DNA from: Thermosynechococcus sp. CL-1
Lineage (GTDB): Bacteria > Cyanobacteriota > Cyanobacteriia > Thermosynechococcales > Thermosynechococcaceae
Assembly: GCF_008386235.1 (NCBI RefSeq)
Contig: NZ_CP040671.1
Location: 2,544,001 to 2,608,000 of the forward strand
DNA length: 64,000 bases
Direction of reading: 5' to 3'
Shown here: positions 47,220 through 52,509 of the stretch, piece after piece
Layout: each line of letters opens with the position of its first letter
Numbering within the stretch: position 1 is the first letter of the stretch
Made by a program: the position numbers and the translations under genes
Notes under the pieces: model-generated
Told to the model about the DNA's origin: nothing
The model's input: only the letters and a program-made list of their open reading frames with translations
Databases searched by the model: none

Positions 47220-48122
47220 ATGGATTTGTTGCGATCGCTCCCTTTGGGGCTATACCTTGAACAACCTGTGACTTGGCTGCATCGCCTTGATCCACGGGTC
47301 AAGCTGGCATGGTTGATGACGTTTCTGTTGGCACCTATTTTGGCGGATGTCACTTGGCGGTTGGGGCTAGTGGTTAGTTTAATTTTCCTGACCCTCCTAG
47401 GGGGAATTCCCGCACGGGTGTGGCGGCGGCAACTGCTGTGGCTCCTCTTGGTGGGGAGTTTAATTCTAGTCATCACGGCTTTGATGCCGGATGGGATGGC
47501 GGTCACCTATCAACCCCGCCGCCCTTTGGCAGCCACCGCTCCGCCCACGAGTTACAGTTATATCCTGTGGCAGTTTCATACCCAAGTGGGTCAGTTTCCG
47601 ATTCATCTGCAAGTCTCCCAGCGATCGCTGGATTTGGGGTTACGCCTGAGTACCCTCCTGTTTACGCTCCTTTACAGTACGCATCTGTTTTTGCTCACCA
47701 CTGCCCCTGAGGAAGTCACCGCTGGCTTGGAAAATCTGATGCAGCCCCTGAAACGCTTTAAGCTGCCGGTGGCCGAAATTGCCCTGACCTTGACGCTGTC
47801 GCTGCGGTTTATTCCCTTGGTCTTAGAAGAGGTGCAAAACCTGAGCCGCTCAGTGCGGACGCGTGCCATCAATTGGCGACTGGTGGGCATTAAGGGCAGC
47901 ATCAAGTTGTGGCTCACCTTAGCAGTACGGCTGTTGGACAATTTACTCCTGCGGGCAGAACAGGTGGCCTGTGCGATGCAGGTGCGGGGCTTTCAAGAAC
48001 CGGGAACCTACGATAATCCCTGGCACCATCTGCGACTGCAGCGGCGAGATTGGTTGGCTCTGGGGGGCATGGGGTTATTTTGGTTGGTTCGTTTGGGTTG
48101 GTTGGGGGTGACACACCATTGA
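47220..48122 (+). CDS. Orphan ECF transporter T component (EcfT/CbiQ family)
   Basis: 300 residues from ATG 47220. YLEQPVTWLHRLDPRVKLAW is the typical EcfT N-terminal motif. Several membrane helices follow, then the coupling region with TRA (SVRTRAINWR) and VRG (CAMQVRGFQ) motifs that contact the ATPases. No ATPase or S component is adjacent. By similarity it could pair with the ATPase at 31882, as plant ABCI12 is proposed to do with ABCI11. It follows the vipp1-like gene by 9 bp and overlaps the pabB start by one base. Confidence 0.87.
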   Translation: MDLLRSLPLGLYLEQPVTWLHRLDPRVKLAWLMTFLLAPILADVTWRLGLVVSLIFLTLLGGIPARVWRRQLLWLLLVGSLILVITALMPDGMAVTYQPRRPLAATAPPTSYSYILWQFHTQVGQFPIHLQVSQRSLDLGLRLSTLLFTLLYSTHLFLLTTAPEEVTAGLENLMQPLKRFKLPVAEIALTLTLSLRFIPLVLEEVQNLSRSVRTRAINWRLVGIKGSIKLWLTLAVRLLDNLLLRAEQVACAMQVRGFQEPGTYDNPWHHLRLQRRDWLALGGMGLFWLVRLGWLGVTHH

Positions 48123-49495
48123 TGTTCCCCTGTCAGCCGTGGCTATGGTGCTGTTTGCCGCTGCGGCGTCGCACGGGTCGCGCCGTTTTTCAGCAGTTAT
48201 TTTTGGCGGAGCCGATTGCCGTCCTCCTCGAAAGTCCAGCCCAAGCCCCCACCTCCCAAGCGCGCTACTCCATTTGTGCGGGTTCCCCCCGCGGCGATCG
48301 CCAGTGGCCACTCTCCTTGGGTCAAGTCCTGCCGACGCTACAAAGCTTTCCCCAATGTGAAGCGGTTCCTGAAGCGGTGCGCCATCTGCCCTTTACTGGT
48401 GGCTGGTTGGGATGGCTGGGGTATGAGTTGGCGTGGGAAATTGAAGCCCTCCCCCCTCTAAAACCTGATCCTCTCCCTTTTCCAGTGGCCTTTTGGTATG
48501 AACCCGCAGCCTTTGCTGTCTTGGATCATCAGGAAGATCTGCTCTACTTGGCGGCTTCGACCCCTAGCCAACTGGCAGCGCTGCAAGAAGCGCTTGCGGA
48601 AACACCCCCTGAGCCATCTCTCTGGGTGCCCGATCGCCCCGGCAGCATTGAACTAGCCGCTGGCTGGCAACCCGATACCTACCAAGCAGCGGTGCAGCAG
48701 ATTCTCCGCCATATTCGTGCTGGCGATATTTTTCAAGCCAATCTGTCGGCCCGCTTTTGCCATTACGGGCGCGTTGATCCTTGGCAACAATACCTGCGGC
48801 TGCAGCAGATTAACCCCTCTCCCTTTGCCAGTTTTTGGCAGACCCCTTGGGGCTACATTGTCAGTTGCTCACCGGAACGCTTGGTGCAAGTGCAGGGAGA
48901 TAGGGTGCAAACCCGACCCATTGCTGGTACCCGTCCGCGCGGCCAAACCCCAGCGGGCGATCGCGCCCAGGCCGAGGAACTTCTCAGCAATACCAAGGAA
49001 CAGGCAGAACACATGATGCTCGTGGATTTAGAGCGCAATGACTTGGGGCGAGTGTGCCAGTGGGGCAGTGTGGTGGTGGATGAACTCCTAACGCTGGAGT
49101 ACTACAGCCATGTGATTCACTTGGTGAGCAATGTTCGCGGCACGTTGCAGCCGGGGCTGTCTCCTGTGGATGTGATCCGTGCCCTCTTTCCCGGCGGCAC
49201 GATTACTGGCTGTCCCAAGGTGCGCTGCATGGCGATTTTGGCGGCTCTGGAACCCTTTCCCCGCAATTTGTTCTACGGTTCCTGTGGCTACTGGGATCAG
49301 CGGGGGCATTTGGACTTGAATATCCTCATCCGTACCTTGTTGGTGGCAGGCGATCGCCAGACGACCTGGGGACAGGTGGGCGCCGGTATTGTGGCCGACA
49401 GTGATCCACAGCGGGAATGGCAAGAATCCCTGAGCAAAGCCCAAGCCCTGCTCCTTGCCCTCGGAACACCTATGCCCATCAGCCCCCGTTCCTAG
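48122..49495 (+). CDS. Chorismate-using synthase component I (PabB/TrpE family)
   Basis: 457 residues from ATG 48122; the TGATG overlap with ecfT sets the start. The chorismate-binding domain has HIRAGDIFQANLSARF, SPERLVQVQGDRVQTRPIAGTRPRG, ELLSNTKEQAEHMMLVDLERNDLGRV, FPGGTITGCPKVRCM, and GYWDQRGHLDLNILIRT. The layout fits PabB (4-amino-4-deoxychorismate synthase I, folate pathway). However, PIAGT carries Ala where E. coli PabB has the catalytic Lys of PIKGT, so an anthranilate synthase role is not excluded. Confidence 0.82.
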   Translation: MFPCQPWLWCCLPLRRRTGRAVFQQLFLAEPIAVLLESPAQAPTSQARYSICAGSPRGDRQWPLSLGQVLPTLQSFPQCEAVPEAVRHLPFTGGWLGWLGYELAWEIEALPPLKPDPLPFPVAFWYEPAAFAVLDHQEDLLYLAASTPSQLAALQEALAETPPEPSLWVPDRPGSIELAAGWQPDTYQAAVQQILRHIRAGDIFQANLSARFCHYGRVDPWQQYLRLQQINPSPFASFWQTPWGYIVSCSPERLVQVQGDRVQTRPIAGTRPRGQTPAGDRAQAEELLSNTKEQAEHMMLVDLERNDLGRVCQWGSVVVDELLTLEYYSHVIHLVSNVRGTLQPGLSPVDVIRALFPGGTITGCPKVRCMAILAALEPFPRNLFYGSCGYWDQRGHLDLNILIRTLLVAGDRQTTWGQVGAGIVADSDPQREWQESLSKAQALLLALGTPMPISPRS

Positions 49496-49968
49496 GCTCC
49501 CTCCATCAGAGCGTGCCATTCAATTACCACAGCCGCAGGCACAGCAATCTCAATCCCCTGCTCCTCTAGGGGCGGACGCAGTACCAAAGGTTCACTCTTG
49601 GGCAATTGCGAGGCGAGGGGCAACAGGTCAAACTGTCCCACATTGGCAACGGAGTCTGCCTTGGGAAAGTCATCTACGGCTGTGAGGGTTTGACCGCTCG
49701 ATGTGATCAGCACCAAGGGATCGGGATGGCGAAAGTGGTACTGCTCGGGAAACCCCACCAAGCGTAATTGCAACTGGTCACGACGGGAAAAGAGAATCAC
49801 CTGCCACGTGAAGCCACGATTATCGCGCAACTGATGCCGCGACTGCACCACCACTTGATTGGGAGCCTCTTCAATGGTGCGCATCATGGCAGGGCTACTG
49901 GGGGACACCGCTAGCCACAGGGGAATGACGAGCAGGATCACAAGTAACAAACGCTGCCAACGTTTCAT
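49492..49968 (-). CDS. DUF3122 family exported protein
   Basis: 158 residues. A signal peptide (KRWQRLLLVILLVIPLWLAV, then SPSSPAM) precedes a beta-rich domain with NQVVVQSRHQLRDNRGFTWQVILF and LRLVGFPEQYHFRHPDPLVL, the DUF3122 pattern of cyanobacteria. Function is unknown. It lies 12 bp after the Tll0287-like heme protein gene on the same strand, and probably belongs to one transcript with it and the SQR-like gene. The stop overlaps pabB by 4 bp. Confidence 0.85.
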   Translation of the reverse strand: MKRWQRLLLVILLVIPLWLAVSPSSPAMMRTIEEAPNQVVVQSRHQLRDNRGFTWQVILFSRRDQLQLRLVGFPEQYHFRHPDPLVLITSSGQTLTAVDDFPKADSVANVGQFDLLPLASQLPKSEPLVLRPPLEEQGIEIAVPAAVVIEWHALMEGA

Positions 49969-49980
49969 TGAAGTTCCTCC

Positions 49981-50556
49981 CTAGGGTGAGGTTTGGAGTG
50001 CCTGTTGAATTTGCGGAATCGTCACAGCGTACATGCCCCGCAGATCACCAACACGGAAGCCATAGGCGCGATCGCTGGGATATTTTTCTTGAATAAAGGC
50101 AGGCCGCCGATTTTTCGCCCCATGACAGGCAAGGCAACTGGCTTGGACATCAATGCGACGGAAGTAGTGCACCCCTTCAGCATCCGTTTGCCAAAAGGCT
50201 TGGAGTTGACGATTGTTATCAAAGCGATTGAGGGCTTGCACTTCCAGCGCTGTGCGCGGGGCATGGTTGGGGTTGCGGTACTTGAGGGCTACCTGACGCA
50301 GTTGCCAGCCATTGGCAGCAGCAATTTCCTTCGCTTTCTTGCCCACGGGGGCACAAACAGCCTTAAAGGTGTCAAGGGTGGGTTCCGTGGGACTTCCTTC
50401 TAAAGTAGAGGCAAGGCCAATGCGCATTTGATCCAACTGTTCAATGGCGGTTACGGCTTTCCCCAGTTCATCGGGATTCACACTGGCCAATGTGGCTGAG
50501 GAACTGTTGAGCCATAGACAAACCATCAACAGACCCATGAGAAAGAGGCGCGCCAT
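49981..50556 (-). CDS. Tll0287-type c-heme protein (DUF3365)
   Basis: 191 residues with a signal peptide (about 1-24). The single heme-binding motif is CLACH at 141-145, and C68 in FKAVCAP is available as a second axial ligand. This matches Tll0287 of T. elongatus as I recall it, a periplasmic c-type heme protein with Cys/His ligation and a PAS-like fold (DUF3365), of unknown role. The unusual thiolate ligand suggests sensing or redox signalling rather than simple electron transfer. It lies between the SQR-like and DUF3122 genes. Confidence 0.9.
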   Translation of the reverse strand: MARLFLMGLLMVCLWLNSSSATLASVNPDELGKAVTAIEQLDQMRIGLASTLEGSPTEPTLDTFKAVCAPVGKKAKEIAAANGWQLRQVALKYRNPNHAPRTALEVQALNRFDNNRQLQAFWQTDAEGVHYFRRIDVQASCLACHGAKNRRPAFIQEKYPSDRAYGFRVGDLRGMYAVTIPQIQQALQTSP

Positions 50557-50594
50557 AAAAATTACTCCTTGTCAGTGTTGTTAACGGTTGCATA

Positions 50595-51893
50595 TCAAAC
50601 TTTTGCGAACGGTTGCTGCTCGGAAACTAGGGGGGGTTGAAGGGGACGCACAAGGGAGAGGCCAAAGAAGAGCCGCAGTCCCCACTGTTCAAACCAAGGA
50701 ACACTTAGCCCCCATCGCATTTTCAGCAGGAAGTAGCGTTCAAAGGCGGCCTTGACCCAACTCACCCACAATCCTTGAATGGCGTAGGCCAAGCGGCGCT
50801 TCTGCCCGAGGGTCTCAGGAATCACAGGAGCGGCAATATAGGCAATACCCGTGTCGCCAAAGTCGGCAAAACAGAGGGCATCCAGTGTCGGCACCACAGG
50901 GTCAGCGGCTAATTCCCCAAGGGCAACAGCAATATTGTGGCTGGCGGCGATCGCCATCTCCTCGGTCATTTGACCCGTCTTGGGCAAGCCCATAGGCACA
51001 GGGGTGACTTCTATCGGCGGCAGGTGAACACTAATACCGACCCCATAGATTTCAGGATAGTCGGGGTGCTGAAGGGTGGGCAGCAGGGGCAAAAATCCCT
51101 TTTCATTGCCAAGACCCGAGGCACGCACAAAGGCTGGCCCGCGAAAAGGTGGCAAAATCATGCTGTAGCCAAAGGGGATTACCCGTCCATCCCGCAACAA
51201 AATCCGATGCGGCTCAATGGCCGTGATCTCGGCATTCGTGATGGTTTCAATGCCCCGCTGTGCAATCAGGTCTAGGGTGAGTTGATCACTGTTGGCCAAG
51301 CCGCCAATCCCCAGATGGCCAATGTAGGGTTCAGGAGTAATGAATGTAATCTTGACGCGATCGCGCAACCGATGACGCCGCAGGGCATACTCCGCCAAAA
51401 ACAGAAATTCATAGGCAGGCCCAAAGCAACTGGCTCCCGGCGCCGCACCCACAACTAAATCCTTGGGGTCTTTGAGGAATGCTTGCCATGCTCGATGGGC
51501 GGCAACTGCGTGGGCGGGGGTACACACGGAATAACTGTGAACGCCAAGGCCGGGAATCAAATCGAGGGCGAGTTCTGCCCCTGTGGCAATCACTAAATAG
51601 TCGTAGTCAAGGGTTTGCTCAGGCAAATAGACTTTCTTAGCTTTAGGGTCAATCTGCTGAACTTTGCCTTGCACCCATTGCAACCCATGGCGACGGCTCA
51701 CGATCCCTAGGGGCACTTGCAGGCGTTCGAGGGAATGGTGTCCAAGGGCAACTGCCACTAGTCCCGGAATAAATGTAAAGCGATTCACATCGGAGACCAA
51801 GACCACTTGATGGCGATCGCCCAAACGGTGCCTTAATTCGTAGGCTGTGGACAACCCGCCGATGCCTGCCCCAAGGACAACCACCCGTGCCAT
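50595..51893 (-). CDS. Sulfide:quinone oxidoreductase-like flavoprotein
   Basis: 432 residues. FAD-binding VVVLGAGIGGLSTAYEL begins at residue 4, and a second dinucleotide region and YDYLVIATGAEL follow. Three cysteines (C124 in SVCTPAH, C156 in GASCFGPAYEF, C341 in ALCFADFGDTG) fall near the three catalytic positions of SQR. A C-terminal amphipathic region (KAAFERYFLLKMRWG) could seat it on the membrane. It should oxidise sulfide or another thiol donor and reduce quinone. It lacks the family context of an adjacent regulator gene but has a dyad at its promoter. Confidence 0.83.
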   Translation of the reverse strand: MARVVVLGAGIGGLSTAYELRHRLGDRHQVVLVSDVNRFTFIPGLVAVALGHHSLERLQVPLGIVSRRHGLQWVQGKVQQIDPKAKKVYLPEQTLDYDYLVIATGAELALDLIPGLGVHSYSVCTPAHAVAAHRAWQAFLKDPKDLVVGAAPGASCFGPAYEFLFLAEYALRRHRLRDRVKITFITPEPYIGHLGIGGLANSDQLTLDLIAQRGIETITNAEITAIEPHRILLRDGRVIPFGYSMILPPFRGPAFVRASGLGNEKGFLPLLPTLQHPDYPEIYGVGISVHLPPIEVTPVPMGLPKTGQMTEEMAIAASHNIAVALGELAADPVVPTLDALCFADFGDTGIAYIAAPVIPETLGQKRRLAYAIQGLWVSWVKAAFERYFLLKMRWGLSVPWFEQWGLRLFFGLSLVRPLQPPLVSEQQPFAKV

Positions 51894-51923
51894 AACCGTA
51901 TCCTCTGTAAATTTATCTAATTA

Positions 51924-51936
51924 ACTATATGATAGT
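51924..51936. promoter_or_regulatory. Candidate operator dyad between SQR-like gene and ssb
   Basis: ACTAT and ATAGT are exact inverted 5-bp arms around ATG, 31-43 bp upstream of the SQR-like start codon, in an AT-rich stretch where its -10 box is expected. ArsR-type sulfide regulators bind AT-rich dyads in comparable places; this is inference. Confidence 0.4.
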
Positions 51937-52071
51937 ATAAGAAGATACAATTGGCTACAGCCGTCTGTGCTAGGGAGAACCCCAGAGTCGCGCTGTATTG
52001 ATCCTGTGGCCTTGTCGCGGCAGCCGTTGGGACTATACTGGAAAGAACACGACCTGTTGGAAGCCGATCGG

Positions 52072-52509
52072 ATGAACAGTTGCGTCCTCTTTGCAGAAGT
52101 GATTCAAGCGCCAGAACTGCGCTACACCCAAGAAAATCAGATGGCGGTGGCCACAATGGTGGTGCAGTTTGCTAGCCTGCGCAGTGAAGAGCCACCCATG
52201 AGTTTGCGAACAGTGGCTTGGGGCAATTTGGGGCAAAAAATGCAGGCAGAATGCAAAGTGGGCGATCGCCTGATCCTCGAAGGCCGGCTAAAAATGGACA
52301 CCATTGACCGCCCCGAAGGTTTCAAAGAAAAACGTGCCGAGTTGGTAGTGAGCCGCTTCTACACCGTTGACGGCAACATTGTGGATCATCCCGCCCAGCC
52401 CGCAGCAACCCCAATGGCCACACCCGCAGCCACGGCACCTATGACACCGAAAGTGGCGCCCCCACCCCCCGAACCCGAAGATATTAACCTAGATGAGGTG
52501 CCCTTCTAG
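52072..52509 (+). CDS. ssb: Single-stranded DNA-binding protein
   Basis: 145 residues from ATG 52072, the first Met of the OB fold. The OB domain (about 1-105) shows MNSCVLFAEVIQAPELRYT, VAWGNLGQKMQAECKVGDRLILEGRL and ELVVSRFY. A Pro/Ala/Thr linker leads to the acidic tail DINLDEVPF, which resembles the protein-docking tip of bacterial SSB (DDDIPF). It protects single-stranded DNA and recruits repair proteins. The gene is divergent from the SQR-like gene. Confidence 0.9.
   Translation: MNSCVLFAEVIQAPELRYTQENQMAVATMVVQFASLRSEEPPMSLRTVAWGNLGQKMQAECKVGDRLILEGRLKMDTIDRPEGFKEKRAELVVSRFYTVDGNIVDHPAQPAATPMATPAATAPMTPKVAPPPPEPEDINLDEVPF

Follow-up and report, generated by a model that had tools for sequence, protein, structure and literature searches.

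A sulfide:quinone reductase, a Tll0287-type heme protein and a DUF3122 protein encoded in a probable sulfide-oxidation operon of Thermosynechococcus sp. CL-1

Described systems and the CL-1 gene run

In Synechocystis 6803, suoS, encoding a type I sulfide:quinone reductase (SQR), and suoR, encoding an ArsR-like repressor, share one cluster on a large plasmid, with suoC and suoT divergent, all suo genes under SuoR control and no known function given for SuoC in the accessible text of a review (PMC4307280). That text does not name DUF3365 or DUF3122 genes alongside suoS, suoR, suoC and suoT. SQR operons with an ArsR gene and accessories are already known as a kind. Here we analyse a run of three genes, encoding an SQR, a Tll0287-like c-type heme protein and a DUF3122 protein, in Thermosynechococcus sp. 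CL-1. The run lies in a stretch of 64,000 nucleotides (contig NZ_CP040671.1, positions 2,544,001 to 2,608,000), here called the window, within a 2.65-Mb genome in one contig. The sulfide-oxidation context of the run is well supported, and we consider it likely that the three genes form a reduced sulfide-oxidation operon in which the heme protein is an extracytoplasmic partner of the SQR rather than a signalling receptor.

50595..51893, minus strand: SQR, type I-like, 432 residues, assigned by Pfam, PDB matches and cysteine alignment
49981..50556, minus strand: Tll0287-like (PF11845, sCache_heme) stand-alone c-type heme protein, 191 residues, with CXXCH at 141-145, axial-type C68 and a hydrophobic N-terminus
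49492..49968, minus strand: DUF3122 (PF11320) protein, 158 residues, probably exported, cysteine-free, with a hydrophobic N-terminal helix followed by a predicted beta-rich domain
51894..52071, minus strand: intergenic region between sqr and the SSB-like gene, with an AT-rich stretch ahead of sqr kept in 7 genus members
51924..51936, no strand: dyad ACTAT-ATG-ATAGT, perfect in 2 of 7 relatives, at chance frequency
52072..52509, plus strand: SSB-like gene, divergent, bounding the run from outside
48050..49495, plus strand: anthranilate/aminodeoxychorismate synthase (TrpE/PabB-like) gene, convergent, bounding the run from outside

The three minus-strand genes follow one another in the order SQR, heme protein, DUF3122 with gaps of 38 bp and 12 bp. 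This spacing and the coordinates had been proposed in an earlier sequence-only reading of the window and are confirmed by the list of open reading frames (ORFs). At the far end, the DUF3122 and TrpE/PabB-like genes overlap by 4 bp.

On one strand of the Synechocystis 6803 plasmid pSYSM lie genes for an SQR (SGL_RS00160), an ArsR protein (RS18475), a DUF3365 protein (RS00155) and a DUF3122 protein (RS00150), from which a DUF302 gene and chrA diverge. The SQR, DUF3365 heme protein and DUF3122 genes have the same order and strand arrangement as in the window, and their products are 62%, 51% and 37% identical, respectively, to those of CL-1. The DUF3365 protein also keeps CLACH and a cysteine at the C68 column. 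Unlike the window, pSYSM places the ArsR gene between the SQR and DUF3365 genes and has the divergent DUF302 gene and chrA. Plasmid, order and family indicate that SGL_RS00160 and RS18475 are very probably suoS and suoR, and by position the DUF302 gene, rather than the heme gene, would correspond to suoC. In the work of Nagy et al. 2014 the suo genes were reportedly strongly induced by both sulfide and arsenite.

A second point of comparison is Picosynechococcus PCC 7002, for which the accessible part of one paper reports a single type I SQR that oxidises sulfide (PMC7042703). The plasmid-encoded SQR of this strain, presumably that enzyme, is 56% identical to the window SQR. Two genomes that we infer to be Picosynechococcus (G068 and G093, loci L187 and L190) differ from the window in holding the heme-DUF3122 pair away from SQR, behind psbA.

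The gene at 50595-51893 appears to encode a type I-like SQR by family, PDB relatives and conserved cysteines. Its product matches Pyr_redox_2 and DAO in Pfam, and its best PDB matches, 3hyv (E 2.7e-92) and 3sz0 (E 2e-89), are both named sulfide-quinone reductases. The cysteine trio picked out in the sequence-only reading holds: C124, C156 and C341, which we take to be the catalytic cysteines, are the only cysteines of the protein, and their columns are cysteine in 101, 103 and 103 of 103 aligned related SQRs. In an NCBIfam scan every model stayed below its cut-off, and the best match was a type III seleno model, at 103.8 bits against a cut-off of 525. Another cyanobacterial SQR of the set behaves alike, and a model that fits this SQR type seems to be missing from the library. 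The nearest named record is a Thermosynechococcus sp. M46_R2017_013 protein, at 86% identity.

Linkage of SQR, heme and DUF3122 genes

Among 291 cyanobacterial genomes surveyed with an SQR cut-off of E<=1e-60, 76 have a PF11845 match, 29 an SQR match (in one, G183, of only 162 residues) and 115 a DUF3122 match. Heme genes of the window type, with C68, number 30 in 29 genomes. An SQR and a C68-type heme gene co-occur in 19 of the 291 genomes (Fisher 9.5e-16), and in 11 of these 19 the two lie within 2.5 kb, against about 0.04 expected. Ten of the 11 close pairs share a strand, and the pairs come from families f1, f9, f12, f18, f20 and f23. Fisher and Poisson values here and below ignore relatedness; the exception is the count of proximity by family, which gives P 2.4e-13. 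Linkage is far above chance, and the recurrence of SQR with the heme gene and/or DUF3122 in many families bears out the conserved linkage that had been named beforehand as a test of the proposal.

A neighbour test leaving out the genus and loci found through SQR, and using relaxed thresholds, compared 27 C68-type loci with 40 control loci over 5 kb. The controls were a hand-picked share of the PF11845 places in the 291 genomes, with at most one per genome. SQR, under the strict threshold, lies near 9 of 27 C68-type loci (p 1.1e-4), DUF3122 near 10 of 27 (p 3.4e-5), and a rhodanese, persulfide-dioxygenase-like, YgaP-like or sulfate-permease gene also near 10 of 27 (p 3.4e-5), each against 0 of 40 controls. 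None of the tested sulfur genes was found within 5 kb of any of the 40 control homologues, a count that may miss distant members, as the neighbour profiles (ArsR, rhodanese and others) were built near C68-type and SQR loci. In the loci examined, sulfur genes are near the cysteine class only.

Arrangements vary. The order SQR-heme-DUF3122 is found in L184, L188 and L189, and SQR-ArsR-heme-DUF3122 in L196. DUF3122 also stands beside SQR only (for example L215, L220, L221) or the heme gene only (for example L187, L203). In some genomes C68-type genes adjoin rhodanese, persulfide-dioxygenase-like, YgaP-like, PetC or D1 genes. Outside the 291 genomes, the heme gene follows SQR by 20 bp in Leptolyngbya cf. 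ectocarpi (L026) and by 45 bp in a Spirulinaceae metagenome-assembled genome (L040); both loci were found by SQR search and are excluded from the unbiased count. On the heme-protein tree the SQR-linked label changes at least 7 times and the DUF3122-linked label 8 times, and on the DUF3122 tree the linkage label changes at least 11 times. Although support is weak in places, both trees suggest that the run was assembled or lost more than once and not inherited as a single block. An independent-pairs comparison of the two linkage traits had too few pairs.

Beyond cyanobacteria, a PF11845-type match adjoins SQR in 3 of 59 SQR loci, and at two more (L085, L088) it lies within 5 kb. The three adjoining matches are on Gammaproteobacteria-type contigs, where an SQR stands beside a Tll0287-like match (L061 8001-9847, L063 8001-10048, L064 3-1766). 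The L061 heme gene can be read from a start overlapping the SQR end and keeps the C68-column cysteine.

Three further neighbourhoods were seen during the survey. In L201 (957-2607), from a genome of the same phylum outside the class of the window, a C68-type heme gene has a persulfide-dioxygenase-like gene as its neighbour on a contig of 3.4 kb that holds no SQR. A family of about 130-160 residues, seen at nine loci including L035 (10213-10662), L030 (6542-6937) and L037 (13709-14116), often has its gene behind that for DUF3122 or ArsR in SQR operons, and HlyD- and AcrB-type genes close several of these operons. One member of the family, from L037, was scanned and has no Pfam or NCBIfam match. 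In L192, L035, L036 and L274, which come from Pseudanabaena-type genomes and a plasmid, the heme gene and SQR are flanked and separated by a block of rhodanese, DUF4079, YgaP-like/DUF2892, PetC, D1 and NifX-like genes, with not every gene at every locus.

Within Thermosynechococcus all three genes are contiguous in 7 of 11 genomes. The run is not restricted to hot-spring organisms, being present also in Synechocystis and other cyanobacteria. One genome with the full run (G010) encodes a heme protein identical to PDB entry 5b82 over 191 residues. In G009 (L228/L120) partial SQR and DUF3122 matches lie between the same flanking genes, with no heme gene; this genome and G004 hold decayed copies of the run. 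In G001 neither the heme protein nor DUF3122 has a match, and SQR has only a weak flavoprotein match (E 1.2e-5). All 11 genomes encode a protein 69-72% identical to a cyanobacterial persulfide-dioxygenase-like one, which by family and context is probably a persulfide dioxygenase.

Cysteine 68 and the PF11845 family

The heme protein has a single Pfam match, to the Tll0287-like family PF11845 (6.6e-32), and a single PDB match at E<=0.001. That match, 5b82, is Tll0287 of T. vestitus (elongatus) BP-1, which shares with it family, CXXCH and C68, and from which it differs at 23 of 191 positions (88% identity). Besides C68 and the CXXCH motif CLACH at 141-145 there is no second heme motif. The Pfam match, the PDB match and the alignment agree with the Tll0287-type assignment with CLACH and C68 of the sequence-only reading. 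Cys/His ligation of the 5b82 heme is reported in the accessible text of a preprint (PMC12889525), and as the only other conserved cysteine, C68 is the probable axial ligand.

Of 39 window-type homologues, picked by a profile of window relatives that could favour C68, 38 have this cysteine and the 39th is cut by a contig end. C68 is absent from all 29 best-scoring PF11845 proteins (247-617 residues), and CXXCH is kept in all 68 of both sets. Among the 40 control homologues (294-793 residues), which overlap the set of 29, none has a cysteine at the C68 column or within three columns, and all have CXXCH. R94, K92, K148 and R173 are each kept by 31-34 of the 34 cyanobacterial C68-type proteins and by none of the 29 of the other class. 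One residue, C68, separates two classes within this heme-domain family.

Ten of the 40 controls were scanned for domains, and eight carry HAMP, kinase or cyclase domains; the other two (L251, L257) show PF11845 alone. Five short PF11845 ORFs missed by the profile (L204, L207-L210) all lack C68. They were left out of the neighbour counts and the 291-genome linkage count, and none of the tested neighbour families lies within 5 kb of them. Small as it is, this set of five suggests that sulfur neighbours accompany the cysteine and not the stand-alone architecture as such. Four of the ORFs (L204, L207, L208, L209) form a second short PF11845 class, with a lipoprotein-like cysteine after a hydrophobic N-terminus and CXXCH.

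Proposed roles and competing explanations

Linkage, gene order and an axial-type cysteine that co-segregates with sulfur genes are the observations on which the operon model is built. By family, the SQR would oxidise sulfide at the membrane, pass electrons to plastoquinone and make sulfane sulfur. Linkage, N-terminus and heme class suggest that the exported His/Cys-ligated heme protein may be its redox partner across the membrane, handling electrons or the sulfur product in the lumen or periplasm. The DUF3122 protein may act as an accessory in the same compartment. Both proteins begin with a hydrophobic stretch and are on that basis probably exported.

For the DUF3122 protein, the family proposed at the outset is upheld (PF11320, E 3.6e-41, 140.8 bits against a cut-off of 25), and the export claimed with it is only probable. 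The protein has no cysteine. Its predicted structure, built from 7 sequences, has a mean pLDDT of 83.5. Foldseek gave no match to the model at E<=0.001, and the sequence gave no PDB match up to E 1. VIA-align placed Bartonella IalB first (Z 8.0, rmsd 3.7, 123 aligned), followed by rows at Z 7.0 and 6.0, CrdA at 5.9 and heme-binding NEAT domains at about 5.6. These scores fall in the range that the tool calls common, and a function drawn from the fold was rejected. The idea that linked DUF3122 copies form a separate clade was also dropped, as they scatter among unlinked copies on a tree with many weak forks.

Several observations weigh against a sulfide-oxidation operon. Of the 19 genomes with both SQR and a C68-type heme gene, eight keep them apart. 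None of 12 tested families lies within 5 kb of 7 of 34 C68-type loci, and 14 of 34 lack SQR, rhodanese, persulfide-dioxygenase-like, YgaP-like and sulfate-permease genes over the same distance. DUF3122 is often found without SQR, as its 115 genomes against 29 for SQR attest. Within the genus, G008 lacks SQR but retains the heme and DUF3122 genes; in G004 (L229) no SQR was found, the heme gene is intact and DUF3122 is fragmented. These two genomes show that the heme protein is of use also where SQR is absent. In one family, three genomes (L187, L190 and L191; G068, G093 and G219) hold the heme-DUF3122 pair away from SQR, with psbA (D1) 136-453 bp upstream on the same strand, which makes a photosystem link of the pair possible.

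This last arrangement also favours the strongest competing explanation, in which photosynthetic electron transport or photosystem maintenance at low oxygen is the task of the heme protein and DUF3122, and proximity to SQR reflects shared induction under sulfidic, micro-oxic conditions. D1 and PetC genes each lie within 5 kb of 7 of 34 C68-type genes, or of 4 and 3 of 27, respectively, when SQR-found loci are left out and thresholds relaxed. DUF3122 is widespread and reaches SQR-free genomes of 1.6-1.9 Mb. That sqr can lie close to psbA and petC2 is itself published, in the accessible parts of two papers (PMC5061849, PMC11304991), and keeps this explanation alive. However, L180, L194 and L201, the last on its 3.4-kb contig, have rhodanese or persulfide-dioxygenase-like neighbours with neither SQR nor D1 within 5 kb, and heme-gene matches adjoin SQR in Gammaproteobacteria-type contigs, expected to have no D1 photosystem. 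We regard a primarily photosynthetic role as possible but improbable.

The sequence-only reading had suggested a sulfide or polysulfide sensing and oxidation system. Its oxidation half is supported by the linkage and by the suo-type locus of pSYSM; its sensing half is not. A role of the heme protein in sensing sulfide or polysulfide and controlling SQR has some appeal, as the sCache_heme family is placed in the Cache superfamily of sensor domains in the accessible preprint text (PMC12889525), and as the run in this genus lacks an adjacent ArsR gene, another regulator could be needed. Yet a Pfam scan of the 191-residue protein found no fusion of HAMP, kinase, chemoreceptor (MCP) or cyclase type, and the ORF list of the run contains no kinase gene. 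Most of the scanned controls do carry signalling domains, and the controls lack C68 and sulfur neighbours. A stand-alone homologue behaves as a redox protein: in the available text of the same preprint its Cys/His ligation is stable, it autoxidises slowly, NO binds to it weakly and neither NO nor O2 strongly, and redox roles are assigned to it (PMC12889525). An ArsR gene lies no more than 1 kb from SQR at 17 of the 45 cyanobacterial SQR loci and points to another regulator at least there. In the window, Pfam finds no ArsR-type regulator among the SSB, SQR, heme and DUF3122 genes; elsewhere in the CL-1 genome there are three weak ArsR-family matches of at most 37% identity. A sensing role therefore seems unlikely.

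Upstream of the run, the dyad ACTAT-ATG-ATAGT was proposed as a promoter feature. It is present at 51924-51936 and overlaps the second hexamer of a promoter-like match. Promoter-like matches of this kind are at chance count (2 found against 1.8 in shuffles), the window holds 49 perfect dyads of the same shape, and the dyad is perfect in only 2 of 7 aligned genus members. The dyad is no evidence of an operator and was rejected as one.

Chance neighbours kept only by shared ancestry are very improbable: the flanking order (SSB, TrpE-like, CbiQ) is conserved within the genus as well, but SQR-heme proximity exceeds expectation in six families, extends to Synechocystis and Gammaproteobacteria-type contigs, and has been gained or lost repeatedly on both trees.

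Within the sulfide-oxidation operon model, a more specific role for the heme can be proposed by analogy. The C68-type Tll0287 proteins might be extracytoplasmic heme-thiolate enzymes that use the axial cysteine for sulfur chemistry, such as the oxidation or conjugation of thiosulfate, sulfite or polysulfide derived from the SQR product, with DUF3122 as carrier or scaffold. They would then be a Cache-fold counterpart that reached the solution of TsdA and SoxA independently, a speculative proposal that we rate as rather unlikely. Tll0287 reportedly has a low midpoint potential (Motomura et al. 2017), which by analogy would suit a heme that accepts electrons only once a ligand is lost, as has been proposed for TsdA. 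In TsdA, according to the accessible texts, the reaction runs through a sulfur adduct of a cysteine that is a ligand of a c-heme; when a substrate mimic detaches this cysteine, the heme potential rises by about 200 mV (PMC4423706, PMC9562282). The likeness between these type-4 heme-thiolate centres of TsdA and SoxA and the window protein is a Cys-ligated c-heme, deduced for the latter from the 5b82 report. Unlike TsdA and SoxA, the window protein belongs to a different family and fold, with one CXXCH, PF11845 alone and a place in the Cache superfamily, and no homology to the SoxA catalytic domain was found by Pfam or in the PDB at E<=0.001.

The literature searched agrees with the earlier statement that the heme protein has had no known role. 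A limited literature search, which did not cover Nagy et al. 2014, found no published link of the Tll0287-type family or DUF3122 to SQR, and no paper on DUF3122 at all. For the stand-alone class, a 2026 preprint gives in its accessible text a general redox role only, whereas the window copy sits in a sulfur context (PMC12889525); the word sulfide is absent from the main text of that preprint. The crystal structure of Tll0287 shows rare His/Cys heme ligation, and the literature searched gives the protein no pathway. Together with the uncharacterised DUF3122 family, Tll0287 is now placed in cyanobacterial sulfide metabolism. The role of the heme protein is testable, as the genes occur both in Synechocystis 6803, which is genetically tractable, and in the thermophile whose protein was crystallised. 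If the heme does act on sulfur compounds, a second, unrelated fold would be doing heme-thiolate sulfur chemistry.

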